DNA of 64,000 bases, from contig JACPGT010000011.1 in the NCBI GenBank assembly GCA_016188965.1, positions 37,632-101,631 on the forward strand, in the 5' to 3' direction. The DNA comes from Microcaldota archaeon. Its GTDB lineage: Archaea; Micrarchaeota; Micrarchaeia; Norongarragalinales; Norongarragalinaceae. The notes under the pieces are model-generated. The model saw nothing but the letters and a program-made list of their open reading frames with translations, was not told the DNA's origin and ran no database searches. Positions within the stretch are counted from its first letter, which is position 1, and every line of letters begins with the position of its first letter. Shown one piece after another: positions 43,275-63,335 of the stretch. Made by a program: the position numbers and the translations under genes.

Positions 43275-43445
43275 TTCAGCTCAATCCTCCGAAAACAAAA
43301 ACCAATTGCGAAAACTGATGCATAGAGGCACGCCGGGGCTTAAAAAAGCTTTCCGGCAGCTCGGTTCCACTAATCGGAAAATGGAAAAACTAAAATGCAA
43401 GAGTAAAAGTCGCACAGGTTACCGAAAAAGCGGACCATAGTTCCC

Positions 43446-43844: not shown

Positions 43845-43948
43845 GGGACGGAACCTCGAGAGAATACAGACGCCGTTAGCAGGGACGCACGATTTTTTAT
43901 ACGTTGCGAGAACACAAGAACCCGGAAAGAAAGACGCAGGAAACCCGT

Positions 43949-44374
43949 ATGCAACAGAAACGACCGACACGCGTGGCTTTTTTCTGTGACTTGGGAATCC
44001 GGGCATCGGAAAACGTACACCGGGCCGCGCTGGATCTCATCCAAAGCCAAGGAATGGACAACATACGCCTCTATCACGGAGGATTGTATGATGAAACTGC
44101 CAAGCACAGCGGCACATACCACTTATCACAAGGACGGACGAGCGAAAGACTGCATTTGAGCGAAATCGACGTTATCGTGCCGCTGACCGTAGACACTCAA
44201 CAAATCATGCGGGCCCGCTTGAGGCTACTGGAAGGCCACGACAAACCCAGGCTCATTCCGATTCATGAACACCAAATCAAACCAGATAACATCAACCCGG
44301 CACTGCTTCTACAGCTTCTCCGGATGTTGGCCCAAGATGAGGACCCGCACGGAACCAGAGAAAAAAGAGTATGA
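43949..44374 (+). CDS. Hypothetical protein
   Basis: MQQKRPTRVAFFCDLGIRASENVHRAALDLIQSQG. Confidence 0.5.
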   Translation: MQQKRPTRVAFFCDLGIRASENVHRAALDLIQSQGMDNIRLYHGGLYDETAKHSGTYHLSQGRTSERLHLSEIDVIVPLTVDTQQIMRARLRLLEGHDKPRLIPIHEHQIKPDNINPALLLQLLRMLAQDEDPHGTREKRV

Positions 44375-44437
44375 ATTCCCGGAGAAATGGCTGAAAAAAA
44401 GCGGCGGCGGCCATCGCGCAGCCTCCACTAGAAACCG

Positions 44438-45496: not shown

Positions 45497-45736
45497 TTTC
45501 ACCCACCCCCCATCCGTTACTGTGTCTTTTCGCAGCGTTTTGGTCTCAAAAATACGATTTACTGAAAGAATTATGCACATATTTGTTTTAATGGTTTCCC
45601 TCGTTTTATTTGCAGCAAGCGGGGGGGCAGAAAGCGCAGATGTTGGCACACGTGTACTTGCTCTGGTATTACTTGGGCAAAAAACCGCAGGACGAATAAG
45701 CGGGCTTTATAGGGCGAAAACCCCTTGACAACGAAC

Positions 45737-46264
45737 ATGGCCGTTGCCGAGTGGTTGTACGAACTGGGCGAGCTTAAGCGCATCGCGCGCAGTGGGTGGT
45801 GGACCGCCAAGGTGCGGCAACCGGAAACCGTGGCCGAGCATTCCTGGCGCGCCGCGTGCATCGCGTACGCATTGGCGCTCGAAGAAGGCCTTGACGCGCC
45901 AGCGGCAGCCGTGGCGGCATTATTTCACGACGCGCACGAGGCGCGTACGCTGGACCTGCACAAAATGGCCAAAAAATACGTCCGATCGGATGCGATACGG
46001 GCCGCGGTGGAGCAGAACGCCGCGTCACCGGCCAAGACCCGTCTAGAGCTTGATAAACCCATCCCGTCTGCAATCAAGACGGTGGTAAAAGATGCGGACC
46101 TTCTGGAAATGGCGGTTACGGCACAGGAATACATGGCAGCGGGGCATGTAGAAGCCCGCGCGTGGCGGGACGGCGTCAAGGCCAAACTTGCGACCAAGAC
46201 GGCGAAGAAATGGTACGGCGAAATCCGCCGGACCCAGCCGTCCGAATGGTATCGAAAAAACTAA
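45737..46264 (+). CDS. HD-domain hydrolase (5'-nucleotidase YfbR/HDDC2-like)
   Basis: LKRIARSGWW, VAEHSWRAACIAYALA, ALFHDAHEA, DADLLEMAVTAQEY. Confidence 0.82.
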   Translation: MAVAEWLYELGELKRIARSGWWTAKVRQPETVAEHSWRAACIAYALALEEGLDAPAAAVAALFHDAHEARTLDLHKMAKKYVRSDAIRAAVEQNAASPAKTRLELDKPIPSAIKTVVKDADLLEMAVTAQEYMAAGHVEARAWRDGVKAKLATKTAKKWYGEIRRTQPSEWYRKN

Positions 46265-46308
46265 TGGACGCGGGATGGCGCCGAAAAATAGGCCCACGGA
46301 CATGGGCG

Positions 46309-46593
46309 TCAAACACGCGTTTCCGGGTTAATCTTGGCAGCAGCCGCCTCAATTTGTTTCTTTTCCAATTCCAACTCGGCCAGCAAATCCTTGACTTTGA
46401 AGTTTTCCGACGCCGCCGTCACGGTCGCGAATATGGCCGTCGGCATCTGTTTGTTAATTCGGTAGGCGTCAATCACGGCGTGCAGTTCTTGGTCGGAAAA
46501 GCCGGATAGCAGGATGATTTTCGTCGACTTGCCGTTGGCATGGTTGGCCCTATCGACGGATGCGAACGTGTTTTCAGAAGCGGGCGCCGGCAT
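46309..46593 (-). CDS. DUF3783-like small protein
   Basis: IILLSGFSDQELHAVIDAYRINKQMPTAIFATVTAASENFKVKDLLAEL. Confidence 0.6.
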   Translation of the reverse strand: MPAPASENTFASVDRANHANGKSTKIILLSGFSDQELHAVIDAYRINKQMPTAIFATVTAASENFKVKDLLAELELEKKQIEAAAAKINPETRV

Positions 46594-46635
46594 GGGAAAA
46601 AACCTCGGAAAGAAAACGGAAAAAATAGCGGAGAA

Positions 46636-46785
46636 TCAGACGATAAGCGCGACGCATGCCATGCCGACAAGTACCAGCCACCAGGCCGATTCGTCCGACA
46701 GCGGGTTGGACAAGATGTTGGTAATCTGGCCGAAGACGGAAAACGTCAGGAAAAGCAACGTGTTGGTGATGACGGCTAAGACCAT
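46636..46785 (-). CDS. Small membrane peptide (49 aa)
   Basis: MVLAVITNTLLFLTFSVFGQITNILSNPLSDESAWWLVLVGMACVALIV. Confidence 0.5.
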   Translation of the reverse strand: MVLAVITNTLLFLTFSVFGQITNILSNPLSDESAWWLVLVGMACVALIV

Positions 46786-47190
46786 TTACGCCATCCTCCG
46801 AGGAAGCGGCAGAATTTCACCGCACGCCTTACAGATTTTTTCCTTGCGTTTGTAGTTGAATTCAAACGACGTGCCGCCGCAATGCGGACAGCCCAAACCG
46901 CCAGCCGGGTTGGAATGATAACTCTTCCAAGCGTCTTTCGTATCACCGTAGACAACAGCGCCGCCGGACGAATAGACTTTGGGCGAATCGCCGGACGCCG
47001 GCTTGGACGCGGCGGAAATGGCCGATGACGCGCCAATCTGCGTGTCGCCCGGCTTGTTCGAAACGGGCGTTTCCGGAAGCGGGTCGCGGGTGATGTCGAG
47101 GCGATCGGAGTCGCAACGAGGGCAACGAGAGACGCGGGAACGGTCATCCGCCTTGAATTCCAAGCGGCAATTCTTACATCTGACTTTCAT
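46786..47190 (-). CDS. Zinc-ribbon protein
   Basis: CKNC...CPRC and CPHCGGT...CKACGE. Confidence 0.7.
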   Translation of the reverse strand: MKVRCKNCRLEFKADDRSRVSRCPRCDSDRLDITRDPLPETPVSNKPGDTQIGASSAISAASKPASGDSPKVYSSGGAVVYGDTKDAWKSYHSNPAGGLGCPHCGGTSFEFNYKRKEKICKACGEILPLPRRMA

Positions 47191-47442
47191 GAAGGTTTTT
47201 GTGAAAACACCCGCTTAAAAACAAGGGGTTGCGGCGTTTTGCACAAACAAGCAACGGAAAAGGAAAAAACGGAAAGAGGCGCCCGCCAGCGCAAGGGGCC
47301 GAGATGAAGGAACGGCCTGCGCCCCCTCGCGAGAAGACGGAGGCAGAAAAGCCACAGAAAGCAACGTCATCCGCAAGGCCAACCTTTATTTTCCCGCGTT
47401 TTCCCCCAATGAGTCTACGACAACACCCAGGTGAACGCGCAT

Positions 47443-48669
47443 ATGAAACGCTTACTCGTAGTCCTCGACGGCGTCGGCGACCTGCCCCACCCCGACTTGG
47501 GCAACAAAACGCCCCTGCAGGCCGCGCACGCGCCGGCATTGCAGACACTCGCCCGCGGCGGCCAAGTGGGCCATTTGCGCATCGCCAAGCAAATCGCGCC
47601 GGAATCCGACGTGGGCGTCTGTAGCGTACTGGGGCAGAATCCGTTTGAAGACCACGTGGGACGCGGGCTTTTGGAGGCTAAAGGCGCCAACGTAGCGTTC
47701 AAAACCGGCGACCTGGCTCTGCGCGCCAACTTCGCCACCTGCCAGGCCGACGGCAAGACGTTGGCGGACCGCCGCGCCGGACGGGGCCTGGATGAAGCCG
47801 ACGCGCACGCCTTGGCCGCCGAAGTCAACGCCAAAGTCAAACTAGACGACGCCACGTTCAGCTTCGTGGCCACCAAAGGCCACCGCGCCGTCTTGGTCAT
47901 CCACGCCCAGGAGCCGTTGGATTGCCACATCAGCAACACCGACCCGGCGTACGAAGTCATCGACGGGCTTGGCTCGGCCAAACGCACGTTCGACATGGCC
48001 ATCACGCCGGCGCGCGCCTGGAAGGACGAAGCCGGTTCGCGCCGTGCGGCGCAATTGGTCAACGAATTCACCGAAAAAAGCTTCCGCGTGCTGGAAGCAA
48101 GCGCCATCAACGCCCGCCGGCGCAAGGAAGGCACGCTGGCGGCCAACTGCGTGCTGCTGCGCGACCCGGAAAGCCGCGACAAAAAACTCCGACGCCTGCC
48201 AGGCGACTGGGCCATCCTCTCGGAAATGCCCATGGAGGAAGGTATCGCGCAACTCATGGACATGCGCGTGGTGCGCCTGGACAAACAAAAAACGGCCGAA
48301 GCCGCGTATGCGCACGCCGTGCAGATGACGCTCAAGACCCTGAAAGAAGCCGACGGCGTCTACGTTCACCTCAAGGCACCCGACGTGTTCGGGCACGACG
48401 GCGACGCCAAAGGCAAAACGCAAAGCATTGGGGAAATCGACGCGGACTACTTCAAGCCCCTATTGGAAAAACTGGACCTCGCCAACGTGCGCATCGCCGT
48501 CACGGGCGATCACAGCACGCCGTGCATCCACCATTCGCACTCGGCCGACCCCGTGCCATACCTGCTCGGCGGCGCCGGCATCCGGGCCGAAAACCAGCCG
48601 TTCGACGAGACCAATACCGGGCCTACAATCAACGGGTGGGAATTGATGCCCAAATTACTGCGAAAATAA
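47443..48669 (+). CDS. apgM: 2,3-bisphosphoglycerate-independent phosphoglycerate mutase, archaeal type
   Basis: VVLDGVGDLPHPDLGNKTPLQAA; HLKAPDVFGHDGDAKGK; VTGDHSTPCIHHSHSADPVPYLL. Confidence 0.9.
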   Translation: MKRLLVVLDGVGDLPHPDLGNKTPLQAAHAPALQTLARGGQVGHLRIAKQIAPESDVGVCSVLGQNPFEDHVGRGLLEAKGANVAFKTGDLALRANFATCQADGKTLADRRAGRGLDEADAHALAAEVNAKVKLDDATFSFVATKGHRAVLVIHAQEPLDCHISNTDPAYEVIDGLGSAKRTFDMAITPARAWKDEAGSRRAAQLVNEFTEKSFRVLEASAINARRRKEGTLAANCVLLRDPESRDKKLRRLPGDWAILSEMPMEEGIAQLMDMRVVRLDKQKTAEAAYAHAVQMTLKTLKEADGVYVHLKAPDVFGHDGDAKGKTQSIGEIDADYFKPLLEKLDLANVRIAVTGDHSTPCIHHSHSADPVPYLLGGAGIRAENQPFDETNTGPTINGWELMPKLLRK

Positions 48670-48738
48670 AGGCCACGCCAAGAAAAAAGGCATCCGCCAC
48701 AGGCAAAGGGCCGGCGCATGGCCCAAAACGACAATCAA

Positions 48739-49737
48739 TCAACCGGCGACGTAGAGCAACTCGGCCGCCAAAGCGCCTAAATAGACCAACAACAGCACCG
48801 CGCCTTCATACTTAGTCACGCGGCCCTTGATGGTGAAGCCCATGAACAAGAAAGTAATCAACAACAGCGCGGGAAGGGTGATGGCGCGACTGGACGCCTC
48901 CAGCGTCACCGGCTGCAGGAGGGTGAACACGCCCACGCTGATCAGCAAGGTGAAGATATTCGAGCCAATCGTCTCGGAGACGGCTAACTCCTCTAAACCC
49001 CGCCGCGTCGCTTGCACGGCCGCCGCCAGGTTCGGCAAAGACGGCCCCAGTGCGCCCAACGTGATGCCGATGACGAGGTCCGACACGCCGAACGTCGAAC
49101 TGAAGTAGATGAGCGAATCGGTGAAGAACTGCGCGCCCAACAACAACGTCACGCCGCCGGCCAAGAAAACGCCAAAACCGTCCCGCAACGTCAACGGGCC
49201 CAAGTGGACTTTGCCGACCAACTCCAACGTCTGGACCATCTGTTTGCCTTCCTTCTGTGACTCTTTCTTGCCCAGGATGCGTTCCTGTTGATAGACGTTA
49301 ATCAGGTACGGCACGAACAACAACAAAAAAACGGTGCCGTCCACGCGGTCCAACACGCCGTCGTTCAACGCCATGGCTGCCACAATGATGGTCGCCACCA
49401 TCATGAACACCAAGTCGCGCAGCAACATGACGCGGCTGACGCGCAAGGGCCGGATCATGCTACAAAGTCCGATGATCAGGCCGATGTTGACGATGACCGA
49501 GCCGATGATGGTGCCCAATCCAATTTGAGGATGGCCCTTGAAAACGGCCGATCCGGCCACGAGCAACTCCGGCAGTGAGAGCATAATCGAGACGAGAATC
49601 AGGCCCACGGCGACGCTGGTGGTGTGAAACCGCTCGGCCACGTGCGACGCCGAGTCCGTCACCCATTCCGCGCCTTTGAGAAGCAGTGCCGCGCCGCCCA
49701 ACAAAAGACCGGCATTGAACAATAGGCCAAGAACCAT
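48739..49737 (-). CDS. Na+/Ca2+ exchanger family antiporter
   Basis: LSLPELLVAGSAVFKGHPQIGLGTIIGSVIVNIGLIIGL; LGALGPSLPNLAAAVQATRRGLEELAVSETIGSNIF. Confidence 0.85.
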   Translation of the reverse strand: MVLGLLFNAGLLLGGAALLLKGAEWVTDSASHVAERFHTTSVAVGLILVSIMLSLPELLVAGSAVFKGHPQIGLGTIIGSVIVNIGLIIGLCSMIRPLRVSRVMLLRDLVFMMVATIIVAAMALNDGVLDRVDGTVFLLLFVPYLINVYQQERILGKKESQKEGKQMVQTLELVGKVHLGPLTLRDGFGVFLAGGVTLLLGAQFFTDSLIYFSSTFGVSDLVIGITLGALGPSLPNLAAAVQATRRGLEELAVSETIGSNIFTLLISVGVFTLLQPVTLEASSRAITLPALLLITFLFMGFTIKGRVTKYEGAVLLLVYLGALAAELLYVAG

Positions 49738-49882
49738 ACCAACCTTTTTTCGAGCCGTGTTTTTATAGGCCTTTGGAAACGCGGACAGAACAAAGCAGCG
49801 GCTTTGAAGTGGAAAAAAACGAAAAGAGAGAAAAAAACAAGTTGGGAAAAAAGGAGGTTGTTTGAAGAAAGAGGCGAAGCCC

Positions 49883-51127
49883 CTAAGGTAGTTTGAACCG
49901 CGCCAAAGGCACTCCGTCCTCTTCAATGCGAAGCAGGCGGTTGTACTTGGCCGTCCGCTCGCCACGCGCCGGCGCGCCCAGTTTGATCTGGCCGCAGGCC
50001 AACGCCGTGGCCAAATCCGAGATGAACGCGTCTTCCGTCTCGCCGGAGCGGTGCGACACCATCACGTTCCAACCGAACGACTCGGCTATTTGCGCCGCCC
50101 GGAGGCTTTCCGACAAAGTGCCGATCTGGTTGACCTTCAACAAAAGAGCCGAGCAACTCAACTGGGCGCGGTCGATGCGTGCCGGGTTCGTCACCAACAA
50201 ATCGTCGCCGACGACTTGGCATTTTCCAGCAAACACCGCGCGCAAACGCGCAAAATCGTCGAACGCTTCCTCGTGGAACGGATCCTCTATACTGATGAAG
50301 CGGTACTGACTTTGAAGTTCGGCGTAGTGGTTCAACAACTCGCCGGGCGTCAGGATCTTACCGTCAACGTGGTACGCTCCGGTCCGGGCGTCGTAGAACT
50401 CGGAAGCGGCACAATCCAACGCCAAGGCCATCTTCTGCCCATGGCCGTTCTCCTCAACCGCCCGCCATACCAAATCCAACGCCTGGCGCACGTTGGACAC
50501 GTCCGGCGCGATGCCGCCCTCATCCCCCACGTTGCCCGCGGGCGCGCCGAATTTCTTCACCGCATCCTTCTTGAGGCTCTGGTACGTCTCGGCCACCATC
50601 TGCGCGGCCTCGCCAAACGTCTTGGCGCCAGTAGGCACCACCATGACTTCTTGGATCTTGAGGCTCGAGCCTGCATGCTTTCCTCCGTTGAGCACGTTGG
50701 CAAACGGCAACGGCAAAAGGGGCTTGCGCTTCAACGAGGCGGCCAGGTAAGAATACAACGGTTTGGAGCCGGCAAACGCACGGGCGCCGGCCAAGCTGAC
50801 GGCCAACAACGCGTTGGCGCCTATTTTTTTCTTGTTGGCCGTGCCATCGGCCTTCAACAAGAATGCGTCCAACTCCGCCTGGGACTTGAAGTCCTTAGTC
50901 TTCATTGATTTGCCCAACGCCTGCACGTGGCCGACTGCCTTTGAAACGCCTTTGCCGTGAAAGGGCCGGCCGCCATCCCGCAATTCGACCGCTTCGTGAG
51001 TGCCAGTAGACGCGCCGGAAGGCACGGAAGCCGTGAACCACGCGCGGCCGACTTGAAGACCGGCTTCGACCGTGGGGTTACCACGAGAGTCCAAAATCCA
51101 GCGCGCGTTAACGGAAGAGACCTTCAT
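49883..51127 (-). CDS. eno: Enolase
   Basis: ARWILDSRGNPTVEAGL; GGKHAG; SIEDPFHEEAFDDF; SHRSGETEDAFISDLA. Confidence 0.93.
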   Translation of the reverse strand: MKVSSVNARWILDSRGNPTVEAGLQVGRAWFTASVPSGASTGTHEAVELRDGGRPFHGKGVSKAVGHVQALGKSMKTKDFKSQAELDAFLLKADGTANKKKIGANALLAVSLAGARAFAGSKPLYSYLAASLKRKPLLPLPFANVLNGGKHAGSSLKIQEVMVVPTGAKTFGEAAQMVAETYQSLKKDAVKKFGAPAGNVGDEGGIAPDVSNVRQALDLVWRAVEENGHGQKMALALDCAASEFYDARTGAYHVDGKILTPGELLNHYAELQSQYRFISIEDPFHEEAFDDFARLRAVFAGKCQVVGDDLLVTNPARIDRAQLSCSALLLKVNQIGTLSESLRAAQIAESFGWNVMVSHRSGETEDAFISDLATALACGQIKLGAPARGERTAKYNRLLRIEEDGVPLARFKLP

Positions 51128-51479
51128 CAGTAACCCACCCAAACGGCCAGAACCGTCTGCTTTCGCCGCCAGTGGATTCGGACGGGAAGAAGACGGGACG
51201 TACCGGCTTGGCACGCATTACGCCGGCCGGATTAAAAAATCAAGAGGCTGTCACACACCCCCCAACAAAAGGCGAAGAACCTCGGCAGGGAACAAACCGC
51301 CAACCTGATTCGCCTCCAAACACAACAAACACCAATTAACCATCAAGGAAACAACAAAAACAACCCACCCACCCCACAATTCCACTAATCGACATACGGG
51401 CGGGCACGCAGGAAAACCAGACAGTGTGAAAAGTGTGAAAAGAACATCGGGCAACTTGGGGTGGGGAAAGAACGGTTTT

Positions 51480-51526
51480 ATAGCAAACCAAGAAAGTAAC
51501 CCGACTCAAGTGTCTTGGTTTGCTAT
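51480..51526. repeat. Perfect 14-bp inverted repeat ATAGCAAACCAAGA / TCTTGGTTTGCTAT
   Basis: 51480-51493 and 51513-51526, 19-nt spacer. Confidence 0.8.
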
Positions 51527-51706
51527 CTAGCAAAGCTGTATGTTTCACGACTATTTGGCAAGTTTTGCTATAAGTTGGTGATAGTGTAAGGTGTTTTGAA
51601 AGTGTTTGTTCGGAAGCAAAAAGAAAAAGTATATGAAAAAAGATACAGAAAACAAAAAAACACAAAAGAGAAAAAATAGGAAAAACAAAAAACACATAAA
51701 AAGTCG

Positions 51707-52240
51707 TTAAGCCGTTGTTTGGTTCTTGAATTCTCCTTTGTATTCTGCTTTTCCTTTCAAATCATTAAACAGAATCTGACAAATGATTGTTTTAGGTTGT
51801 AGATGAAGGGTATGTGGAGATAAGTTGACGATTTCCAAGACTTGGTGATTTGAAACTCCAGGTTGGATCATTCCGGAGGATACGTGAACCAACAAACCCA
51901 ATCGTGCAAGCCTGCTTCTTCCTTCAATAAATGCACATGTTTTGTTGTCAAGCGTCAGTTTTTCATACGTAACTCCTAAAACCAATTCTCCTGGTTTTAG
52001 TTGGATGAATTTCCCATCCGAGATGACGATTTCTTCATGTAGATGGTCATCGTATTGGGGGTTGCCTGAAACCAGAACTGGTTTTTTTGATTTTTTTATT
52101 CTCTTGAAATGGTTCCCTAACCTGAAATCAACCGAACACGAACCGACCAACTTCGCATCATACGGCTCAATCCTGATTTTCCCGTTGCGTATGGCTTTGA
52201 AAATTTCCGGCTTGGCCCAAACCATCTGTCTTGCCACCAT
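51707..52240 (-). CDS. dcd: dCTP deaminase family protein
   Basis: IRIEPYDAKLVGSCSVDFRLGNHF; FIEGRSRLARLGLLVHVSSGMIQPG. Confidence 0.88.
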   Translation of the reverse strand: MVARQMVWAKPEIFKAIRNGKIRIEPYDAKLVGSCSVDFRLGNHFKRIKKSKKPVLVSGNPQYDDHLHEEIVISDGKFIQLKPGELVLGVTYEKLTLDNKTCAFIEGRSRLARLGLLVHVSSGMIQPGVSNHQVLEIVNLSPHTLHLQPKTIICQILFNDLKGKAEYKGEFKNQTTA

Positions 52241-52317
52241 TTTTCAGTGTTTTTTTTTACGGCCGCTTGGTTTCACCCCAACGACCGATTAGTGGAACTA
52301 AGGGGGGGGTGGGGCTA

Positions 52318-52785
52318 TTAAGTTTGCCCGTCCTTCGCGACGTCGTCCATATCGCACGTGTCGCTGCCCGTCATCCCCTCACCCGTCCTCCGGCGTTTCC
52401 AATTCCTCCAAAACACCGCGTACGCCCAAAGGCCCATGGCGAACTCCTCGGATAACTCGAACACCGCGCCCCTTCTTTCCTGCCGGATCAGGCCGCTTTG
52501 CTCCAAAGCCCGCAGGGCCAGGTGCAAGGCGCTTTTTTGCGCTCGGGTTTCGGACAGAAGCGCCGTAAACGTCCGCGGCTTTTCGGACAGAAGCGTCAAG
52601 ACCTGCACGGCCAGCCGCTTGCGCTTCTGTGAAAAGGAGAAACAGCGGTCCACCAGGTCGAAAAGGGTGAACTGGCCCGTTCGAATTTTCGCGCCGTCTG
52701 TCAAATCAACCCGCAGATGGGCAAACTGTTGTTTTTCGACCGATTCGGATGCCATGGTTGTTTCGCTTCCGACGCTGGCCGTCAA
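52318..52785 (-). CDS. HTH (winged-helix-like) protein
   Basis: LLSEKPRTFTALLSETRAQKSALHLALRALEQSGLIRQERRGAVFELSEE. Confidence 0.6.
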   Translation of the reverse strand: MTASVGSETTMASESVEKQQFAHLRVDLTDGAKIRTGQFTLFDLVDRCFSFSQKRKRLAVQVLTLLSEKPRTFTALLSETRAQKSALHLALRALEQSGLIRQERRGAVFELSEEFAMGLWAYAVFWRNWKRRRTGEGMTGSDTCDMDDVAKDGQT

Positions 52786-52792
52786 ATCGGCA

Positions 52793-53263
52793 TCATGTTT
52801 TTTCCGGGCCGGGGGTCTGGCCCCGTTTGATCCGCCACGTTTCGACCAACGAACTCCACTCGCGGCCGATGTGTTGCAACGCCTCGCCGAAACGCATCGA
52901 CGCTTTCAGCACCATCTTGTGCCGCTTGTCCTTCTCATCCTGGCCCGTTGGATTGCGCCGCTCCCGTGCCAACAAGCCGCAGCGGACCAATTTGGGAATC
53001 ACGAGGTTGCGGAGGGTGGAGTTGGCCGTGTTGTTCTCCCGCTGCCACGCCGAAATGGCCTTTCCGTCCATCTCGCCGGTTTGTGAAATGTGCCGGACCA
53101 GCTTGACGGCGATGTCGTACTGCACCGCCTGCAAGTGCGGCGGAAACAACAACTTTAGGATGTCGTCGGCTTCCCACCGCGCGCCCAGGCTCATGGGCAA
53201 TTTGCCGTATTCGAACAGAAGCGATTTGCGCGAAGGCAAACCGCGCGTGCGAGGACCGTTCAT
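52793..53263 (-). CDS. HTH-like hypothetical protein
   Basis: NNTANSTLRNLVIPKLVRCGLLARERRN; ATGA overlap with upstream gene. Confidence 0.55.
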   Translation of the reverse strand: MNGPRTRGLPSRKSLLFEYGKLPMSLGARWEADDILKLLFPPHLQAVQYDIAVKLVRHISQTGEMDGKAISAWQRENNTANSTLRNLVIPKLVRCGLLARERRNPTGQDEKDKRHKMVLKASMRFGEALQHIGREWSSLVETWRIKRGQTPGPEKT

Positions 53264-53727
53264 TTTGCTCTGCCTTCCTTTGTCTGGCTCCATAAGATCG
53301 CTAAAAGGTAGTGTCGGTCGTATTGGTGGCGGGCGGACAATTTGGTGAGCGCCGCTTGGACTATCGGATTCAGTTTCTCCGGACTCATTTTCCCGATTTC
53401 ATGCGGATTGTCCATTTTGGGAATTCCATGTTCCTCCCAGATTGCGTCTGCCTCCTCCGCAAGGATATGGCGCGCGATTGCAACCGTACCCACTTTGGCA
53501 AAATCCGACTTGAACGCCCGCCATTTTGCCGGTTCGCTCGGGAACATTTCCATTCGTGCCCCTTCGCCTTCGATTTCCTTGACTGTGTTAAAAAACCGGG
53601 TGAACGGATTCCTGCTCCTTTCAAGCTGTGCGGCATCCCGGACGCGTACGATGGCTTGCACTCGCTTGACTCCGTATTTATTTTTGCTGCGCGGGTCGTT
53701 CGCAAACGCGTGTAAAATTTCGTGCAT
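53260..53727 (-). CDS. Hypothetical protein
   Basis: 155-aa ORF in minus-strand cluster. Confidence 0.55.
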   Translation of the reverse strand: MHEILHAFANDPRSKNKYGVKRVQAIVRVRDAAQLERSRNPFTRFFNTVKEIEGEGARMEMFPSEPAKWRAFKSDFAKVGTVAIARHILAEEADAIWEEHGIPKMDNPHEIGKMSPEKLNPIVQAALTKLSARHQYDRHYLLAILWSQTKEGRAK

Positions 53728-53738
53728 GTCCGTTGCCC

Positions 53739-54710
53739 TTACGGCGCGTTTTGTCTTAATCCTTTTGTCCCCTTGGCCGGTGGACGTCCGCCTGCTGGCT
53801 CCTTCAACATACTACTTCCCTCGACTCCGCTTTCCAGCTCTTTCACGGCTGCCAAATCGGCCGCCGTGTCCTCCCACTCCATGCAATACCGCAGGATGTC
53901 GCTCAAGCGCGCCCACTCCAGCGCCGACTTGCGCCGCAACGCTGCCAAGTCTGCCGCCAAGGCTTCCTGGGCTTCCGACGCCGCCTCGCCCGTTTTGCCG
54001 TCGAAGAACTCCCCCGCTGCCTGCTCGTACGCCGCCCGCACTTGCGCCAACAACGCTTTGGAATGCCGCGGCCCTTCGGCGACGAACTGTTCCAACTCGT
54101 CCGCGACGTTCTCCAAGGCGTTGGCCGCCAACGCTTCAAAACGGCCCGACGCGCCGCCACCGGTTCCCATGCCCCGCAACGCCAACGTGTACCAGCGGTT
54201 GGCTTCCCGCTCCCTACGCTCCGCCGTGGCCGCCGCTTCGGCCGGTTTGGAAAACGCCGCTTCGGCCGCGTCGAACAACGAGCGGTTCACAGCATGCATC
54301 CGCCGCAACAACGTGCTCAACACGTATTCCTGCCCCGAAGCGTACACCCGCAGCGTCACTTGCCGCGGTGCCTCCGCTACGCCTTCCACGGCCGCCAAAT
54401 GCTGCCGCGCTGCCTCTGCCAACTCGGCGGCGGCTTTGCCGTTCAGCACGATGTGCTCCGCTCCGGCCACGTACGCTGAAATCACGGCTCTCAAGGCCTG
54501 TGGCCCATCAGCGTCCACCGCCGCGCTGCGTGCCGCCGGCTGGCCCTGCACATCCACCCGCAGCGCTCCGTCCGGCAACTGCTCCACGTGTGCCGCCGTT
54601 CCCTGCCGGACCCTTTTTGCGTCCGCCCAAGACTTCGGCAGCGACACGATGAACGTATTGCGTCCTGTTTTCTGAATCCGTCGCACATCCATGTTTGTGG
54701 TATATATCAT
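53739..54710 (-). CDS. AbrB-like + PhoU-like regulator
   Basis: RRIQKTGRNTFIVSLPKSWADAKRVRQGTAAHVEQLPDGALRV then helical PhoU-like repeats. Confidence 0.75.
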   Translation of the reverse strand: MIYTTNMDVRRIQKTGRNTFIVSLPKSWADAKRVRQGTAAHVEQLPDGALRVDVQGQPAARSAAVDADGPQALRAVISAYVAGAEHIVLNGKAAAELAEAARQHLAAVEGVAEAPRQVTLRVYASGQEYVLSTLLRRMHAVNRSLFDAAEAAFSKPAEAAATAERREREANRWYTLALRGMGTGGGASGRFEALAANALENVADELEQFVAEGPRHSKALLAQVRAAYEQAAGEFFDGKTGEAASEAQEALAADLAALRRKSALEWARLSDILRYCMEWEDTAADLAAVKELESGVEGSSMLKEPAGGRPPAKGTKGLRQNAP

Positions 54711-54741
54711 CTATATTCTATGTGGCGTTTGTATATATTAA

Positions 54742-54957
54742 TTGGGTGTTTTGAGTGTTGTGGTTGGACGCATGAAACTTCAAACGGAACCGGATCAAGC
54801 AGGATGGCTCTACGCAGGCTTTGTCATCGTATTGCTGTCCGCTTTGGTCTTGGCGCCCAACCCCGCGTTCATCGTGGCCAGCCTATTGGTGCTGGCCTTA
54901 TTCTACCCTTCTTCCGCTCCGCCCCAAGGAATCCTGGAACACCAGGCTCACCCTTGA
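54742..54957 (+). CDS. Small membrane protein
   Basis: 71-aa ORF with two hydrophobic stretches and TATA-like region upstream. Confidence 0.45.
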   Translation: MGVLSVVVGRMKLQTEPDQAGWLYAGFVIVLLSALVLAPNPAFIVASLLVLALFYPSSAPPQGILEHQAHP

Positions 54958-56302
54958 TTTTTCCCAAAGCCTCGTTTGTGTTGGCGGTATACCGTTCAAT
55001 GTTATGCCGGGGTTCGGTTCGCTTCTTTCAGAACCGTTTGCTGACGAAATGGGCAGATTTTCCTTGTCCGTACCTCTTCTCCATTTTGTTTGACCGCCCT
55101 CTTTCATACTCCCTTCCGCGCCCTTTTCGAGCAAACCGGATTTAAACGCCTTATTGTTGGGGCCGGGGCGGTTTTGGGTCGTTTTCTTTATTTACTCGTT
55201 GTTTTCAACGCTTTTTTGTCCACGGCCTTTTTTTTCAAAACCCCTTCTTTTTCTAGTTCGCCTATTTGCCGTTTCCGCTCGCGTTCGGGTCTTTCTGGGC
55301 AGGTTTTCCCCACCGCACTCTTTTTTTGAATAGCGGCAGTGGGGTGGTATGTCTTGATTTGCGTCAAAACCCTGTTTTGGACGTGTTTTACAGGGTTTAC
55401 TCAAAGGGTTTTGGGCGTTTCGGCCGGTTCTACCGTTTGGAGCCGAACGAGCCGTCCATTGTTTTTTTGGCCCAAATCTTTTGGCCATTTATTCTGGCCC
55501 GAACGGGCCGTTATTGGCATTTTGGCGGCCCGTGGTAGTTTTTGAGAATTTTTAAAATGGCCAGATCCATCGCGGGTCGTTTTTTCCAAATTTTTCGCTT
55601 TCAAAACCAAAAATCACCAAAACGTAGGCAGTTTTTTTTCATTTTTTGTTTTTTTGGGGGTTAATAATAGAGGAAGAAAATGCCGATTAGTGGAACAATG
55701 CGGTCTTGCTCAATATCAAAATGTTATATTGATTGGTCGATTGTTACTTCATTTTGGTGTGTTGGTTTATTCCTGGTTTAGCTCGTAGGCGCGTGTGCGG
55801 CTCGATCTGCGTGTCCGGCTCCCGTTGGCGTGTTCGGGTGTTTGTGCATGTTTTTCAAGTGCAAACCGTGATCGAAACGGGGCGCGAGTTGCCCGTTATT
55901 TTGTAATAATATATTGGTATTATGCGAATTCTTCTCAAGTGGTGTAACAAAAATAGCGGAACTGGCACTTTCGGGGTGTTTTAATTGCATTTCTTGTTTG
56001 GGCATCCCTGGGTGGCCCCTAGCCCTTATTCAATACTTTAATGGTGTAACTACATATTTGGTTTTGCCAACTGTGGCTTCTTTCCATGAGGTATTTTTGT
56101 CACTATTATGGTATTTGGTTATTACTAAAACATTGTAATGGTGTGTCGCATTTTTGTTTGATTTTGGTTGAACGGGCCGGCGGTGTGGTTTGCTTTGCAC
56201 GGCGCCGCCTAAATTGTGGTTTAAATGGCATTTTCAGGCCGTTTGGAGGTCGTTTATTGGTGTGTGTCTTGTTTAGGCACGCCCGAATGCGTGCGGGGTG
56301 CG

Positions 56303-56584
56303 TTACTTTTGTTCTGCTTTAGTTGAACTAATCGGGTTTTTTTCGTCTTTGAACGCCTTGTGATGCATCGAAAACCATTTGAGGGAGTCGGCAAATTCAT
56401 CCGCTTCGGCCTTATTTTGGCTCTTTTCGGCCCCGGCGGGGCTTCTGCGGGCTACTTTATCTTCCAGAAGCGCTTGGATTGTCTTGTCCAGGCTGAACCG
56501 TGTTCCATGGCGTGCCTGCAATTTTCCTGACAGTTTTTGGAGCTGATTGTATGTCTCTTCTTGCACACGAATAAGTTTTGTCAT
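56303..56584 (-). CDS. Small DNA-binding/antitoxin-like protein
   Basis: MTKLIRVQEETYNQLQKLSGKLQARHGTRFSLDKTIQALLEDKV, ribbon-helix-helix-like. Confidence 0.6.
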   Translation of the reverse strand: MTKLIRVQEETYNQLQKLSGKLQARHGTRFSLDKTIQALLEDKVARRSPAGAEKSQNKAEADEFADSLKWFSMHHKAFKDEKNPISSTKAEQK

Positions 56585-56817
56585 AGGGTAATTTATGTTA
56601 ACTTTGTTTCACTATTTAAATCTATTTACGTCTAAAATTGGTAGTTTGGCGTCGATTAGTTGAAAATTGATTCTGTATTCTGTGTTTACTCTTTTTTGTT
56701 CTGCGTCATGTTATCGGTGTTTACTGGCAGTGTTTACTAAATTTATCTACTTAATTTACTTTTGGGTTTTGGTGGAATTCGTTTTCTGCCCCATTTTTTC
56801 AAGAAATTTTGATTTTC

Positions 56818-57500
56818 CTGCCTATTTTTGGCATTTTTTGGTCATTTTTGATCAAAACGCAGCTGTTTCGGGCCCAATTCGCTCGCTTTCGGCCCTTTGT
56901 ATCGGCATTTGGCTTATTTTCAGCAAAAATGCGTGAAAATCTGCCTGTTTTGGCGCATTATGCGCCCGATTTGTGGTTTTCCGGCCCGTTTCAATCGTTT
57001 AGAGGCGATTTTTTGGTCTCTTTTTACCTCCAAACCTCAAAATTCGCGTTATTTGCCCCGAATCTACCTTTTTCGTCGTTTTTCACAGATTTTGGCGTGT
57101 TTTTAGTTGTTTTTGATGTGCCTTTGGCGCAGGTTTGGTCTTTCAATGCAAAAAATCAGTGTTTTTACCCAAAATCTGCCTATTTCGGGCCTTTTTGGCC
57201 CTTTTTTCTTTGTTTTAGTCAACGAGATGGTGGTTTTCGGACTTTTCCCTTGTGTTTTGACCCAATTCAATCAAAAAACAGGCGTTTTTTGTGTTTTTCT
57301 GCCTATTTTGGCTCGTTTTGGTTGTTTTACGTCTCGAATCGACCATTCCGGGTGAATTTCTGCTCACGTTGCCTCTTGGCGGGCTATTTTTCCCGATTTT
57401 TACTGTAGTGGGGCCTTTCGAGCCCTATCGGTTTGCCCTTTTCTACCTGCCGTTTGCTTTGTCGGCTTATTTTGGCCTGTTTTTGAGTTTTCTGCCTATG
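56818..57500. repeat. Degenerate ~123-bp tandem-type repeats in T-rich non-coding DNA
   Basis: CTGCC/CTACC anchors at 56818, 56941, 57064, 57176, 57299 and 57492; spacings 123, 123, 112, 123, 193. Confidence 0.55.
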
Positions 57501-57702
57501 TTTAATTTTGGGTTCTCTGGTTGTTTTCGCCCCATATTCCATTGCCTTTAAATAGCCTATTTAAAGGCTCGGACGGCACGGTTGCCTTCAAATGGTCTGA
57601 ATGTGCCTTAAAGGTTGTTTTTGGCGTGTATGGGCGTCGTGTTGGGGTTTGGGTGTGTGTCGGGCGCGAGGGGCCGCCTAAGTTTTGGCGGTATACCGTA
57701 GG

Positions 57703-59085
57703 TCATAGTTCGCGCATCATGCGCCGCTGCCGAAGTTTTTCAAGGCTGATGAGTGTGGCTGGCTCGACGCTTACCCGGCGTTCGTTTTGCCAACTCACGC
57801 GGGCGCTGGTTTTTCTTTTGTAGCGGGGTTGGTACTCGACGCGGACGACGGGGGCGGCGGCGTAGGCCTTGAGGATGGTGCCCGGCCTGTTTTGTAACGC
57901 CTCGGCGGTTTTCTTCAGGTCGATGATGTGGAGTTTCTGCTGGTGGGGTATGATCCACCAGATGGGGTGGGGGCTTTGGAGGATGGCTTGCCGTTGTTCC
58001 GGGTTTTTGAGCGCGTCGTAGAGGTGTTGCTCGATGGTCATGTCGTGGTCGTATCCTGCCGCATCGGTGAATTGGCGGTAGGCGACGGTCACGTCGCGCT
58101 CGTCCGTCCGGCTTGCGGTGAATTCGGCGGTCTCATCGACGCTGGGGTGCCTTCCGGTATAGAATGCGATGGCGGCCTGCCGGCTGGGGCGGGGCAGTTG
58201 TCGGGCGAGGTCCTGCGTCCATTGGCGTAGCGTCTTCTCGACGTTCTTCTGGCGCGTCCGGGCGGTTTTTTTTGCAGTGGCTTGTTGGCCGTGCAGTTTG
58301 ACCATCTGGGCGACGGCGAATCGGTAGCGCAGGGCGTGGCTGGCGATCCGGATTTTTCGGGTGATGACGGGGCGCATAGACCGTGGCGCTTCATGTGTTT
58401 TTCGGGTGTCTTCGCGCGGCTCGCCGTGCTGGACCAAACCGGCCGGTTCGATTTCAACGATGATGGGGATGCGGTGCGGGGCCATGGGTTTGGTCTGGAC
58501 GACCAAGTCGGCGGGCCAGCCGCGTTTTCGCAGGACTTCGTTGAGGTCCTCGCCGGGTTTCATGGCGCGGATCCAGCGGACGAAGTTGGGCGGTGCGTCG
58601 GGTGCGCTCTGGTCGCGGATGGGCCCGAGGGTCGTCTCGCCGCGGCCGACGATTTCGTAGTGGCTGGGATGTTTGTGCAGCAGGTCCTGGAATTCGCGGC
58701 GTATCTTCCAGCCGCGGTCGCTCATGCTGGCGATGCGGAGGCGGGCTTTCTGTACGATGGCGTCTTGCAGTGCCTGGCTGCAGCCGGCCAGTATTCTTTT
58801 TTCTTCGGCGCGAAGCTTTCGTCCCAGCCGCTGGGTGAGGCGGGTTTCCGTTTGGACGTGCAGTTCAAGCGCGGTTTTGATGATTTCGCGGTCTTCGGGG
58901 CGGGGGTAGATGGCGTCGCCCAGTATGTTTTGGATTTCGTCCCATGCGGGGTCGGAGTCCGGTTTTGCCTGTGCTTCCAATTCGGCCCATTTTTTCGGGT
59001 TTTCCCTTCGGTTTTGCTTGAGCCGTTCGACGGCGTCCATGAGGTATTGCTCGATGTGTTTGGCCTCGTGGGGGAGCATCGTCAT
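57703..59085 (-). CDS. Hypothetical protein (460 aa), no recognised family
   Basis: Long ORF with coding-like composition; basic, Arg-rich. Confidence 0.65.
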   Translation of the reverse strand: MTMLPHEAKHIEQYLMDAVERLKQNRRENPKKWAELEAQAKPDSDPAWDEIQNILGDAIYPRPEDREIIKTALELHVQTETRLTQRLGRKLRAEEKRILAGCSQALQDAIVQKARLRIASMSDRGWKIRREFQDLLHKHPSHYEIVGRGETTLGPIRDQSAPDAPPNFVRWIRAMKPGEDLNEVLRKRGWPADLVVQTKPMAPHRIPIIVEIEPAGLVQHGEPREDTRKTHEAPRSMRPVITRKIRIASHALRYRFAVAQMVKLHGQQATAKKTARTRQKNVEKTLRQWTQDLARQLPRPSRQAAIAFYTGRHPSVDETAEFTASRTDERDVTVAYRQFTDAAGYDHDMTIEQHLYDALKNPEQRQAILQSPHPIWWIIPHQQKLHIIDLKKTAEALQNRPGTILKAYAAAPVVRVEYQPRYKRKTSARVSWQNERRVSVEPATLISLEKLRQRRMMREL

Positions 59086-59113
59086 TTTATCCGGCGTGCG
59101 TCAATAAAACTCC

Positions 59114-61900
59114 ATGTCTTCCGACCCGGCCAGCTTGCTTCATCCGTCCGTCTTGGAGTTGGCTCGGCACAAGGGCTTTTTGGCATTCACACCGGTCCAG
59201 CGGGAGGCGTTTCCGCGCATCGTCGCGGGGCAGGACGTCCTGTTGATGGCGCCGACGGGTTTTGGAAAGACCGAGGCAGCGGTTTTGCCCATTTTGTCGA
59301 AGCTTGCCCAGTTGAAGGCCGAGGGCGTGGTGCTGGAGGGCGTGCAGGCGTTGTACATCACGCCGCTGCGCGCGCTGAACCGCGACATGGTCGAGCGGCT
59401 TTCCTTCTTTTGCAAGATGTTGGGCCTCACGTTGGGCGTGCGTCACGGGGATACTAGTTCGTACGAGCGGGTCAAGCAGAAACAGCAGCCTCCGCACATC
59501 TTGGTGACGACGCCGGAGAGCCTGGGGGCCTTGTTGGTCGCCGGCATGCGGGATTCGCTGAAAAACGTCCGGTTCGTCGTGGTTGACGAGGTGCATGAGT
59601 TGGCGTATTCCAAGCGTGGCGTGCAGTTGAGTCTGGCGTTGGCGCGCCTGTCGTTGTTGGCCAAATTCCAGACCATCGGCCTGTCCGCGACGGTGGCCAG
59701 CCCGAGGGACGTGGCGGCTTTCTTAGGGCCCAAGGTTGAAATCGTGGATGCTTCGGGGTTGCGCAAGATGCATTTGGAGGTCGTGCGTCCCAAGGAAGGC
59801 GTGGCGTTGGAGGGCATGAGCCGCGAGACGGCTTCTCGCCTGGCGGCGTTGTCCGACTTGGTACGCACGCACAAAAAGACGTTGGTTTTCGTGAATACGC
59901 GGTTCATGGCCGAGGCGCTCGGCGCGCTTTTGCGGCCTCTTTTGGGTGAGGATTTCGCGGTTCATCATTCGTCTCTTTCCAAGGAGGCCCGCTTGGAAGT
60001 GGAGCAGTTGTTCAAGTCCGGCGGTTTGAAGGCCCTAGTCTGCACGTCGTCCTTGGAGTTGGGCATGGACATCGGCGACGTGGATTTGGTGGTGCAGGTC
60101 GGCTCTCCGCGGCAGGTGACGCGTCTGGTGCAGCGGGTGGGCCGTTCGGGTCATAAGCACCATTTGGTTCCCAAGGGCGTCGTGGTGGCGACGGATGATT
60201 TAGACCAGGTGGAGGCCGAGGTGTTGGTGGTTTTGGCGCATGCGCGCCGTTTGGAGCCGCAGGCGTTGCGGAACGGCTGCCTGGACGTGCTGGCGCATCA
60301 AATCGCGGGCCTGGCGCTTGATTTTGGTCGTATCCGGCTACGGGGGGCGGTGGACGTGTTCCGTGCCCGGTCGTATTTGTACCGCGATCTGGATTTGGTG
60401 GCTGCGCGGGCCGTGGTGGACCAACTGTCGTCCGAGGGGTTGGTGGCGTTCGATGGCGACTTCATTGAGCCGAACGCTCGTACGCGGTTCTACTATTACG
60501 AGAACTTGAGCACTATTGCGGATTTGAAGAAGTTCTTTGTCAAGAACGCCGAGGCGAACAAAAACGTTGCCCTGTTAGACGAGGCGTTCGTTTCTAACTA
60601 TCTGCAGGTGGGCGCGGCGTTCATCGCGCGTGGCCGGGCGTGGAAAGTCCTGTCGATGGACGAGGAGGAAATCGTGGTGGAGCCGGCGCGGGACGTCGAA
60701 GCGGCGATTCCGGACTGGGTGGGGGAGGAAATCCCGGTGGAAAAAGGCGTGGCGGCGTTGGTGGCGCAGGCCGTGGCCGGACGGGCTGACGCGGTCATCG
60801 GCAAGGAAAATGAGGGCGGCGGTTCCGCGGCAGGACCCCGCGAGGACGTCACCGCTGCATCTGGGTTGTTTGGTGCTGAGGCTGGCGGCGCAACGGATGC
60901 TGTTGTCGTGCCCGCGGTTGCTTCCGATTCGTTTTCGCGTGCGTTCGTTTCCAAGCAGGCGGCTTTTTTCACTCCGTCAGCCAGCACCCTGGTTGTGGAG
61001 TGTCAGAAGTCGGTGGCTGTCGTGCACGCTTTCTTCGGGCACAAGATCAACGCCGCTTTGGCGCAGTTGTTGGCGGCTTCCTTTGCGGCGCGCGGAAAAG
61101 CGGTGCGGACGCGCGCGTCGGCGTACGGCGTGGTGTTGGAGTTCTCGAAAGCCGCGGACGGCGAGGCGGTGGCCTCCATCCTTCGCTCGCTCAAGGGCGC
61201 CGCTGTGCGGCCAATGTTGGAAAAGCAGTTGCCCGAATCGCCGATGTTCGCCACGCGTTTCGTGCACGTGGCCAAGCGCTTCGGCTTCTTGCGCAAGGAC
61301 CGCGACTATACGGCCGTAAGCGTCAAGCGGCTGGCGGTTTTGATGCGGGAGTCGGTCATCGGCCGCGAAGTGCTGGCCGAATTGTTCTACGACAAGCTGG
61401 ATGCGGTGGGTCTGGAGGAAGCTTTGCCGTCGGCGTCGGTGCGCGTATTAGCTGCGGACCACTGGTCGGCTTTGGCCAAGGCCATGCTGGACGCCGGCGG
61501 GTTTTCCGAGTTGTATGCCGCGTCGGAGCCGACGGAGAAAGTGGTCAAGGCCTTTGAGGAAGACCTGTTGGCCAAGCGGGTGGTGCTGCATTGCGATTTC
61601 TGCAAGCAGCGCTTCTCGCGCCAATTGTCGGCGCTTAAGGAGCCGCTGAAATGCATCCATTGTGATTCGCCGCGGTTGTTTCCGGAAGATTATCTGTCCA
61701 AGCCGGAGCAGGCGCGCGTGGCCGGGCTGGTGTCCAGTTACGGCCGAAAAGCGGTCTTGGCCCTTAGCACGTATGGCGTGGGTCCGGAGGGCGCGGCGCG
61801 CGTCTTGTCGCGGCTGCACAAGACGGATGTTGATTTGTTCTACGACTTGTTGCAGTCGCAGAAGGATTTCATCCGGACGAAGAAGTTCTGGAAGGCATAA
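59114..61900 (+). CDS. Lhr-type superfamily 2 DNA/RNA helicase
   Basis: FTPVQREAFPRIVAGQDVLLMAPTGFGKTEAAVLP; VVDEVHELAYSKRGVQL; LSATVASP; LVQRVGRSGH; C-terminal zinc motif CDFC...CIHC. Confidence 0.9.
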   Translation: MSSDPASLLHPSVLELARHKGFLAFTPVQREAFPRIVAGQDVLLMAPTGFGKTEAAVLPILSKLAQLKAEGVVLEGVQALYITPLRALNRDMVERLSFFCKMLGLTLGVRHGDTSSYERVKQKQQPPHILVTTPESLGALLVAGMRDSLKNVRFVVVDEVHELAYSKRGVQLSLALARLSLLAKFQTIGLSATVASPRDVAAFLGPKVEIVDASGLRKMHLEVVRPKEGVALEGMSRETASRLAALSDLVRTHKKTLVFVNTRFMAEALGALLRPLLGEDFAVHHSSLSKEARLEVEQLFKSGGLKALVCTSSLELGMDIGDVDLVVQVGSPRQVTRLVQRVGRSGHKHHLVPKGVVVATDDLDQVEAEVLVVLAHARRLEPQALRNGCLDVLAHQIAGLALDFGRIRLRGAVDVFRARSYLYRDLDLVAARAVVDQLSSEGLVAFDGDFIEPNARTRFYYYENLSTIADLKKFFVKNAEANKNVALLDEAFVSNYLQVGAAFIARGRAWKVLSMDEEEIVVEPARDVEAAIPDWVGEEIPVEKGVAALVAQAVAGRADAVIGKENEGGGSAAGPREDVTAASGLFGAEAGGATDAVVVPAVASDSFSRAFVSKQAAFFTPSASTLVVECQKSVAVVHAFFGHKINAALAQLLAASFAARGKAVRTRASAYGVVLEFSKAADGEAVASILRSLKGAAVRPMLEKQLPESPMFATRFVHVAKRFGFLRKDRDYTAVSVKRLAVLMRESVIGREVLAELFYDKLDAVGLEEALPSASVRVLAADHWSALAKAMLDAGGFSELYAASEPTEKVVKAFEEDLLAKRVVLHCDFCKQRFSRQLSALKEPLKCIHCDSPRLFPEDYLSKPEQARVAGLVSSYGRKAVLALSTYGVGPEGAARVLSRLHKTDVDLFYDLLQSQKDFIRTKKFWKA

Positions 61901-61948
61901 CCGTGCTTTTTGAGGGGTGGTATTGTGTTTGACCTTCGAAACGGTCGG

Positions 61949-62308
61949 TCATTTGTGGACGAGGATTTTCCATCCCGCGTGTTTTCCGCCTTCTTTCAGT
62001 TCTTCGGTATTCACTTTGATGCCGTGTGTCTTGCGGGCTTCGCGTCCCTCGATCAACGCCAGTTGGATGATTCCGGATAGTTTTTCCATGGGTGGCAGGC
62101 GTTGTTTTTTGGCGTCTCCTCGGTTGTAATTCTCGGTTTGTTCGTGCGTGAGCGGGACGTGAAGATGTATTGCGGTCATCCGTCGTGTCGTGAACAGTCC
62201 TCCCAGCCATTTTTTTTCTTGCCATTGTTCGTGGGGTTCCACTCCCCGGAGGCCTTGTTGCTGGAGGTGTAGCTGGATGGCGTCCGCCGCGGCCCGGATT
62301 CTTTTCAT
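61949..62308 (-). CDS. Hypothetical protein of ubiquitin-like operon (119 aa)
   Basis: MKRIRAAADAIQLHLQQQGL...; ATG overlaps upstream stop (ATGA). Confidence 0.6.
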   Translation of the reverse strand: MKRIRAAADAIQLHLQQQGLRGVEPHEQWQEKKWLGGLFTTRRMTAIHLHVPLTHEQTENYNRGDAKKQRLPPMEKLSGIIQLALIEGREARKTHGIKVNTEELKEGGKHAGWKILVHK

Positions 62309-62442
62309 TTTTCAGTCCCCGTTTTTTTTCCTGTGTTTTCGCTTTTCGGCCAGGTTTCGATGAATTCGTAATCATTCTCATGCGGAGGCGCGCGTTCTTC
62401 CAACGCCTTTTGGACGACTTTGACGATGGCTGGTTTTTTCAT
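62305..62442 (-). CDS. Hypothetical 45-aa protein of ubiquitin-like operon (unlisted ORF)
   Basis: MKKPAIVKVVQKALEERAPPHENDYEFIETWPKSENTGKKTGTEK; ATGA overlap with next gene, 15 nt after previous gene. Confidence 0.5.
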   Translation of the reverse strand: MKKPAIVKVVQKALEERAPPHENDYEFIETWPKSENTGKKTGTEK

Positions 62443-62457
62443 GGTGTCTAGTCCGTT

Positions 62458-62871
62458 TCAATTCTGCCAGTTTTTGCGTGCGTCTTCGAGCAAGCCCCGG
62501 GGTTCGGGTTTATCCCAAATCACTTTTCGTGGGAGTACGCCGATAATTTCCAGCCGCTGCCGGATTCGTTCACGGGCCGCTTCGAGGTTTTTATGGCCGG
62601 CGTAGATGTTGGCGGTAAGCGTCATGTGGGCTTCCTTCGGATTAGTTCCAGGCTCTATCCGCAACTGGGTGAGTCCGGCAGGCTTTAATTCGGATTTGAT
62701 TTGTTCCCAGTACGCGCCGGCGCCTTCAGAGTTGGTTCCATCGGGCAGTTCGGCGCGGACGTGCACGATGACCCTTCCCGACGTGAAATGTTCGACCTTC
62801 ACTTCGCGTTGATCGTATCGTATTCTTGCGGTTGACTCCAACTCGGCCAACCGGTTGAAAAACGGAATCAT
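62458..62871 (-). CDS. Hypothetical 137-aa protein translationally coupled to E2-like gene
   Basis: MIPFFNRLAELESTARIRYDQREVKVEHF...; ATGA overlap with E2 stop. Confidence 0.65.
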   Translation of the reverse strand: MIPFFNRLAELESTARIRYDQREVKVEHFTSGRVIVHVRAELPDGTNSEGAGAYWEQIKSELKPAGLTQLRIEPGTNPKEAHMTLTANIYAGHKNLEAARERIRQRLEIIGVLPRKVIWDKPEPRGLLEDARKNWQN

Positions 62872-63335
62872 AACTTGACCACCCTCGGCCCTTTGGGTAC
62901 GTTTTGTTCCAGTTCGGGGTGTTCCAGGTAGTATCGCGCCGCTTCCTCGTTCAGCGGGCTTTGTGGGTTGGGGTTTTTCAGAAGCTGGTATAGTGCGTTG
63001 ATGACGGAAAGCAGGGTCTGGCCTTCGCTCCATTGGTTGACCAGTTGGATGCAGACGGCGCCGTCTTCGGCCCGGATGTTGGGATGGAAAATGGGAGTCA
63101 GCCAGTAGACCATCAATCCGCCGGGGTAGGGGTAGTCGCGGGTCAGTTCAATCAGGACGGTGTGCTGCGTTCGGGTGTATAGTTGGCCGTTGTCCAGAAA
63201 CTTTCCTGGCGCGTTGGTGAGGCTGACGGTGTACTCCATGCCGTCTTGGGATGCTTCGAAATGGATGCCGGCGGCGGTCAGTTCCCCTGTTTCGCTTTGG
63301 AGGCGTCGTTGGAAGATGGCGTCGGGAAGTCGCAT
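62868..63335 (-). CDS. Ubiquitin-conjugating enzyme E2-like protein
   Basis: YPYPGGLMVYWLTPIFHPNIRAEDGAVCIQLVNQWSEGQTLLSVINALYQLLKNPNPQSPLNEEAARYY: E2 fold landmarks including HPN and candidate catalytic Cys. Confidence 0.85.
   Translation of the reverse strand: MRLPDAIFQRRLQSETGELTAAGIHFEASQDGMEYTVSLTNAPGKFLDNGQLYTRTQHTVLIELTRDYPYPGGLMVYWLTPIFHPNIRAEDGAVCIQLVNQWSEGQTLLSVINALYQLLKNPNPQSPLNEEAARYYLEHPELEQNVPKGPRVVKL

Follow-up and report, generated by a model that had tools for sequence, protein, structure and literature searches.

We examined a stretch of 64,000 nucleotides, below called the window, from the draft genome of a micrarchaeon (1.37 Mb in 21 unordered contigs, 89% complete), in which a preliminary description had pointed out a candidate chromosomal replication origin. 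The window covers positions 37632-101631 of contig C15 (101,631 bp) and runs to the end of that contig. At the locus in question two copies of a motif, which we call ORB-A and ORB-B after the origin recognition boxes (ORBs) of other archaea, face away from each other on either side of an A-rich tract and the dCTP deaminase gene dcd, and a third copy, ORB-C, lies to the right in a T-rich region that is almost free of genes (Table 1). A literature search found no description of an ORB or a replication origin in Micrarchaeota.

Boxes and genes at the locus

The 12-mer core of the motif, CGATTAGTGGAA, has four exact matches in the genome, all inside the window and within 12.3 kb of each other, where our own arithmetic gives a chance expectation of about 0.16 for 1.37 Mb and two strands. 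With at most one mismatch there are nine matches in the genome against one for a reversed-pattern control, and six of the eight occurrences of the octamer CGATTAGT in the 738 kb that were read in this genome are at 43376-56653. A matrix built from ten sites of the order ranks ORB-B first and ORB-A second on C15, and on the 392-kb contig C1 it finds nothing above shuffled sequence. The preliminary description had named an equal frequency of the motif across the chromosome as a result that would speak against an origin, and the motif has no such chromosome-wide distribution. The two inverted copies that it listed are exact in coordinates and strands, but it missed ORB-C at 55683 (plus), two weaker copies at 56335 (minus) and 56652 (plus) and an isolated core at 43376 (minus). 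The last of these was excluded from the origin pair because it has no G-string.

The A-rich tract is also as first described, with A at 65 of its 96 bases, and the A-richest 96-mer of the window starts at 51614. The interior of the pair is 60% AT, compared with 44% for the contig, and its most AT-rich 60-mer, which lies in the tract, is among the most AT-rich 0.02% of 60-mers on the 101.6-kb contig. Judged by AT-richness alone, an element of the kind expected for unwinding is present, and its role in unwinding is putative. Between ORB-A and the tract, ATAGCAAACCAAGA forms a perfect 14-bp inverted repeat whose arms (51480-51493 / 51513-51526) are 19 nt apart. A short G-rich inverted repeat lies just inside the boxes (TTGGGGTG at 51456-51463 and CACCCCAA at 52274-52281), and it was not conserved in the relatives in which it was checked.

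Table 1. Features of the candidate origin region and related elements in the window
Feature	Position	Strand	Remarks
orc1/cdc6 initiator gene, Orc1-1 type	26855-27916	-	PF22703; TIGR02928 over cut-off; 23.4 kb left of ORB-A
Isolated motif core	43365-43377	-	CCGATTAGTGGAA; without G-string; doubtful role
ORB-A	51364-51391	-	CGATTAGTGGAATTGTGGGGTGGGTGGG; G-string leftward (outward)
A-tract, proposed duplex-unwinding element	51610-51705		68% A; between ORB-A and ORB-B
dcd, dCTP deaminase gene	51707-52240	-	between the ORBs; Pfam PF22769, TIGR02274 over cut-off
ORB-B	52285-52314	+	CCGATTAGTGGAACTAAGGGGGGGGTGGGG; G-string rightward (outward)
Small winged-helix protein gene	52318-52785	-	linked to ORB pair across the order; MarR/ArsR-like fold
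T-rich, almost gene-free region with ORB-C	54711-57702		39% T, 17% A
ORB-C	55683-55703	+	CCGATTAGTGGAACAATGCGG; intact core, degenerate G-string
Weak ORB-like core	56322-56335	-	CCGATTAGTTCAAC; one genome only
Weak ORB-like core	56652-56664	+	TCGATTAGTTGAA; one genome only

Conservation of the outward pair in the order

When 29 draft genomes of the same order, given here as G-numbers, were searched with the consensus AWTANYGGAANTNNGGGG, there were 41 matches and none for the reversed control, and 37 of the 41 lie at the locus syntenic to that of the window. In 19 genomes, the window's and 18 relatives, the matches form a divergent pair with the minus box to the left, the plus box to the right and the G-strings outward; these genomes share a common ancestry and the pairs are not 19 independent events. 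TA, GGAA and GG-G are invariant in all 38 boxes, and many of the pairs are outside the set of sites that seeded the matrix. That the outward pair has been kept at a syntenic locus in so many genomes supports the first interpretation of the region as a candidate replication origin. Outside the order a class-wide search gave only scattered matches to the exact motif, several of them in family f18 with AGTGGAAATRAGGGG. Relatives that carry the motif include the Micrarchaeota metagenome-assembled genomes (MAGs) JACRGH010000045, MNVH01000026 and JAJYYB010000005, and the archaeon JAGVFW010000013.

What lies between the boxes varies. The gene dcd is found there in 15 of the 19 pair-bearing genomes, in minus orientation in for instance G000, G004, G005, G010 and G024 and in plus orientation in G001, G009, G015, G026, G027 and G028; enolase, alone or together with PGM or dcd, takes up the island in G011, G012, G017, G020 and G023, and in two genomes only gene-free AT-rich DNA separates the boxes (G013, 122 nt, 79% AT; G018, 346 nt, 68% AT). 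The interior is more AT-rich than its surroundings in 18 of the 19 pairs and equal to them in G023. The genes that flank the pair on the outside vary as well and can be the winged-helix gene, enolase, a Zn-ribbon gene or PGM. Since both inner and outer genes change around constant boxes, the boxes track no gene, and the outward pair with its AT-rich interior is the conserved part. This repeated rearrangement argues for selection on the boxes themselves.

The same comparison bears on the possibility that the motif is no initiator site, but an operator or promoter element of a small regulon made up of the genes for the winged-helix protein, enolase, PGM, the Zn-ribbon protein and dcd. The winged-helix gene, which has homologues in 26 of the 29 genomes, does adjoin the motif in most of them, and the motif is mostly upstream of its outer neighbour with the G-string toward the gene start. 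However, this neighbour is not always the same gene while the motif stays at the edge of the island, and in the window and G002, where the winged-helix gene is inverted relative to most other genomes, it is the 3' end of the gene that faces the motif, as does that of enolase in G005 and of PGM in G027. An operator would also have to account for dcd lying between the boxes in either orientation and for nearly always two outward copies at a single locus, and it leaves the skew pivot described below unexplained. An outward pair kept around an AT-rich interior fits what is predicted for an origin and not for an operator, which we consider very unlikely.

Two further observations concern rearrangements and extra sites. 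The window (44438-52785) and G001 (G001:C1:52100-59430), two species of one genus, differ by an inversion of about 10 kb that includes the ORB block, a kind of rearrangement that is to be expected near an origin. In genus g21 there is an extra ORB-like site (G024:C6:77315 and G027:C50:18471) about 10 kb from a second cdc6 paralogue on the same contig, which could possibly be a second origin or a regulatory box.

Strand composition and the T-rich region

The preliminary description had inferred a switch from C-rich to G-rich on the plus strand from base counts on four 60-nt lines, and both the counts (C24/G14, C24/G13, C12/G22 and C14/G20) and the switch are correct. The mean G-C per 60-nt line is -0.92 to the left and +4.76 to the right of 55.0 kb, and the mean T-A is -4.5 to the left and +7.8 to the right of 51.7 kb. 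On C15 the cumulative minima are at window positions 51702 for T-A and 55320 for G-C, and the best two-segment split of G+T puts the change point at 54654. Third codon positions, which were used to separate skew from gene orientation, have a negative T-A skew on the plus strand in 17 of 17 genes checked at 29446-51214 and a positive one in eight of eight at 51707-63033, and this holds for genes on both strands. The region thus carries an extremum of base composition, with contig minima at 51.7 and 55.3 kb and a third-position pivot at 51.2-51.7 kb. In G001, of the same genus, an equally strong and strand-independent reversal lies between 53 and 64 kb of the contig.

A skew minimum at some other place would have spoken against an origin here, and it was looked for as far as a draft genome in unordered contigs allows, over the whole of C15, C1 (392 kb) and C2 and over parts of C4 (120 kb), C13 (60 kb) and C21 (20 kb). 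No comparable switch was found in these stretches of C1, C2, C4, C13 and C21, and C1 has more T than A over nearly all of its 392 kb. To the left of the window, C15:26400-34200 is a block with reversed third-position skew, which suggests a recent inversion or insertion.

Could the switch in composition follow from gene orientation, or from an inserted mobile element that carries the motifs? The genes at 51.7-54.7 kb are all on the minus strand and several of them belong to no family, the window ends where the contig ends, and the inversion of about 10 kb separates the window from G001. On the other hand the third-position skew changes sign regardless of gene strand, the genes scanned at 51.7-59.1 kb match no viral family in PHROGs, save the dCTP deaminase (phrog_1663), and the locus is conserved across the order. 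The mobile element was dropped on the PHROGs result and the synteny, and this explanation, largely refuted, has hardly any probability left.

The T-rich region has a counterpart in G001 with the same position, composition and neighbours (h53739, h56303 and the Lhr helicase), and the two are 59% identical over 1.2 kb, within which lies the small open reading frame at 56303-56584. ORB-C has a counterpart there too (G001:C1:62213), with GGGG intact, and in both genomes the region contains direct repeats of TCTGCCTA on the same strand and has a G-C pivot near it. At 56818-57502 there are repeated units of the type (T/C)CTGCCTA on one strand of the non-coding region, and similar units are found in the counterpart.

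The T-rich region around ORB-C (54.7-57.7 kb) possibly forms part of the origin, or is even the place where replication actually starts. In the latter case replication would begin in the 3 kb of non-coding DNA around ORB-C, and ORB-A, dcd and ORB-B would be auxiliary or ancestral. The G-C pivot at 55320 and the combined change point at 54654 favour such a start, and in G001 the combined pivot (61.2 kb) is at most 1 kb from the ORB-C counterpart and 8 kb from the pair. The preservation of the region in synteny, composition and sequence, and of its direct repeats, points the same way. But the conservation across the order belongs to the ORB pair and not to ORB-C, the T-A pivots of both genomes are near the pair, and ORB-C is single and not inverted, with a G-string that is degenerate in the window. 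We hold a start in the T-rich region to be rather unlikely.

Initiator, known origins and a proposed mechanism

The genome encodes an initiator of the Orc1-1 type. It has two Orc1/Cdc6 genes, and Orc1/Cdc6 is present in 28 of the 29 genomes of the order. The best relative of the window's protein in the PDB is Orc1-1 of S. solfataricus (2qby_A, E 1.4e-42), and A. pernix Orc1 is also among the closest. The gene had been placed about 25 kb away, and 23.4 kb separate it from the first motif. We also asked whether the winged-helix protein might be a WhiP-type initiator. In structure comparisons it matches MarR/ArsR regulators best, with low TM-scores, and confidence in its model is modest (pLDDT 63), so we make no such claim; the protein could instead regulate in connection with the origin. 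Elsewhere in the window a tRNA gene at 38117-38229 (minus), spanning 113 nt, was found by Rfam and not by ARAGORN, and for these reasons it probably contains an intron.

The common archaeal ORB motif has been published as TCCA[CG]T[TG]GAAA[TC][GA]AAGGGGT (Ori-Finder 2, PMC4164010). It agrees with the consensus of the order, AWTASYGGAASTRAGGGGGG, at 14 of 20 positions without gaps, including GGAA and GGGG, and the motifs of Sulfolobaceae, Methanomicrobia and Halobacteriaceae match in one consistent register. Column permutations scored as well in 7 of 2000 cases for the common motif, 8 of 2000 for Sulfolobaceae, 18 of 2000 for Methanomicrobia and 21 of 2000 for Halobacteriaceae. The window thus holds inverted boxes of initiator type, at least two of them, that are related to known ORBs. 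Where the common motif has the left half TCCA, the order has AWTA, and the boxes do not fit the common consensus closely. A matrix of the common consensus does not retrieve the micrarchaeal sites and gives only matches at noise level, which counts against an origin. Given the replaced left half and the failure of the published matrix, the boxes are treated as a divergent, lineage-specific ORB; the motifs of Methanococcaceae and Methanobacteriaceae in the same published table likewise depart from the common consensus (PMC4164010).

The arrangement is closest to that of oriC1 in other archaea. In Sulfolobus and Aeropyrum two inverted, polar ORBs flank an AT-rich element (ORB2-DUE-ORB3, DUE being the duplex-unwinding element; PMC12141716, PMC8287685), and the initiator is of the same Orc1-1 type (2qby_A). 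Their ORB3-DUE-ORB2 spans about 130 bp (PMC12141716, PMC8287685) compared with 950 bp in the window and 122 nt between the boxes in G013, and the micrarchaeal boxes are without the TCC left half of theirs. In Haloarcula hispanica the functional oriC1 also has inverted ORBs around an AT-rich region; their long G-strings, which by our reading of a figure legend point outward as in the window, are essential (PMC3936714). The inner G-rich inverted repeat of the window recalls the G-rich enhancer repeat of that origin. In Haloarcula cdc6 is adjacent to the origin, unlike here where it is 23 kb away, the ORB core is different, and it is in the window that a protein-coding gene lies between the boxes.

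Several other points weigh against an origin. An initiator gene beside the origin is usual, if not universal, and none adjoins the boxes: the distance is 23.4 kb in the window, about 16 kb in G001, 64 kb in G012 and 86 kb in G011. The strong skew is found only in the window's genus and is weaker in other genera; in G012, G020 and others there is little or no skew at the pair, and that of G012 is unmarked by it. The pivot of T-A (51.7 kb) lies 3.6 kb from that of G-C (55.3 kb). In G016, G019 and G022, of one family, no boxes were found beside the winged-helix gene, and G003, G007 and G014 yielded no motif match. As the genome is a draft, it may have other origins.

Taken with these points, the comparisons still lead us to conclude that the region is very probably the chromosomal replication origin of a micrarchaeon, of the archaeal oriC1 type, and we regard it as a variant of the ORB-AT-ORB origin that is specific to this lineage. 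The Orc1/Cdc6 protein would bind each box in a polar fashion, contacting the TA(G/C)TGGAA core through its winged helix and the G-string through its AAA+ domain. A facing pair of such complexes would melt the A-tract, and two MCM helicases would be loaded in the space between. Two forks would then depart in opposite directions and over time leave the observed excess of G+T to the right and of C+A to the left. ORB-C and the T-rich region, 2-5 kb rightward, would be part of this origin zone too, either as additional initiator sites or as a second opening region.

It is tempting, if somewhat doubtful, to go further and see an origin that throughout the order has a protein-coding gene at its centre. 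This gene, dcd, would be bracketed by outward ORBs; being AT-rich it would itself serve in the unwinding region, and recombination between the inverted ORBs would flip it from species to species. The initiator gene would be unlinked, and the window's genus would have added a second, conserved opening region of T-rich non-coding DNA.

Hardly any DPANN archaea have been cultured. An origin that can be defined by sequence across most of an order would give an anchor for estimating growth rates from metagenome read coverage, a means to orient and close MAGs and an element on which a replicating plasmid might be built. It would also offer a natural comparison of how initiator and site coevolve when they are not adjacent.

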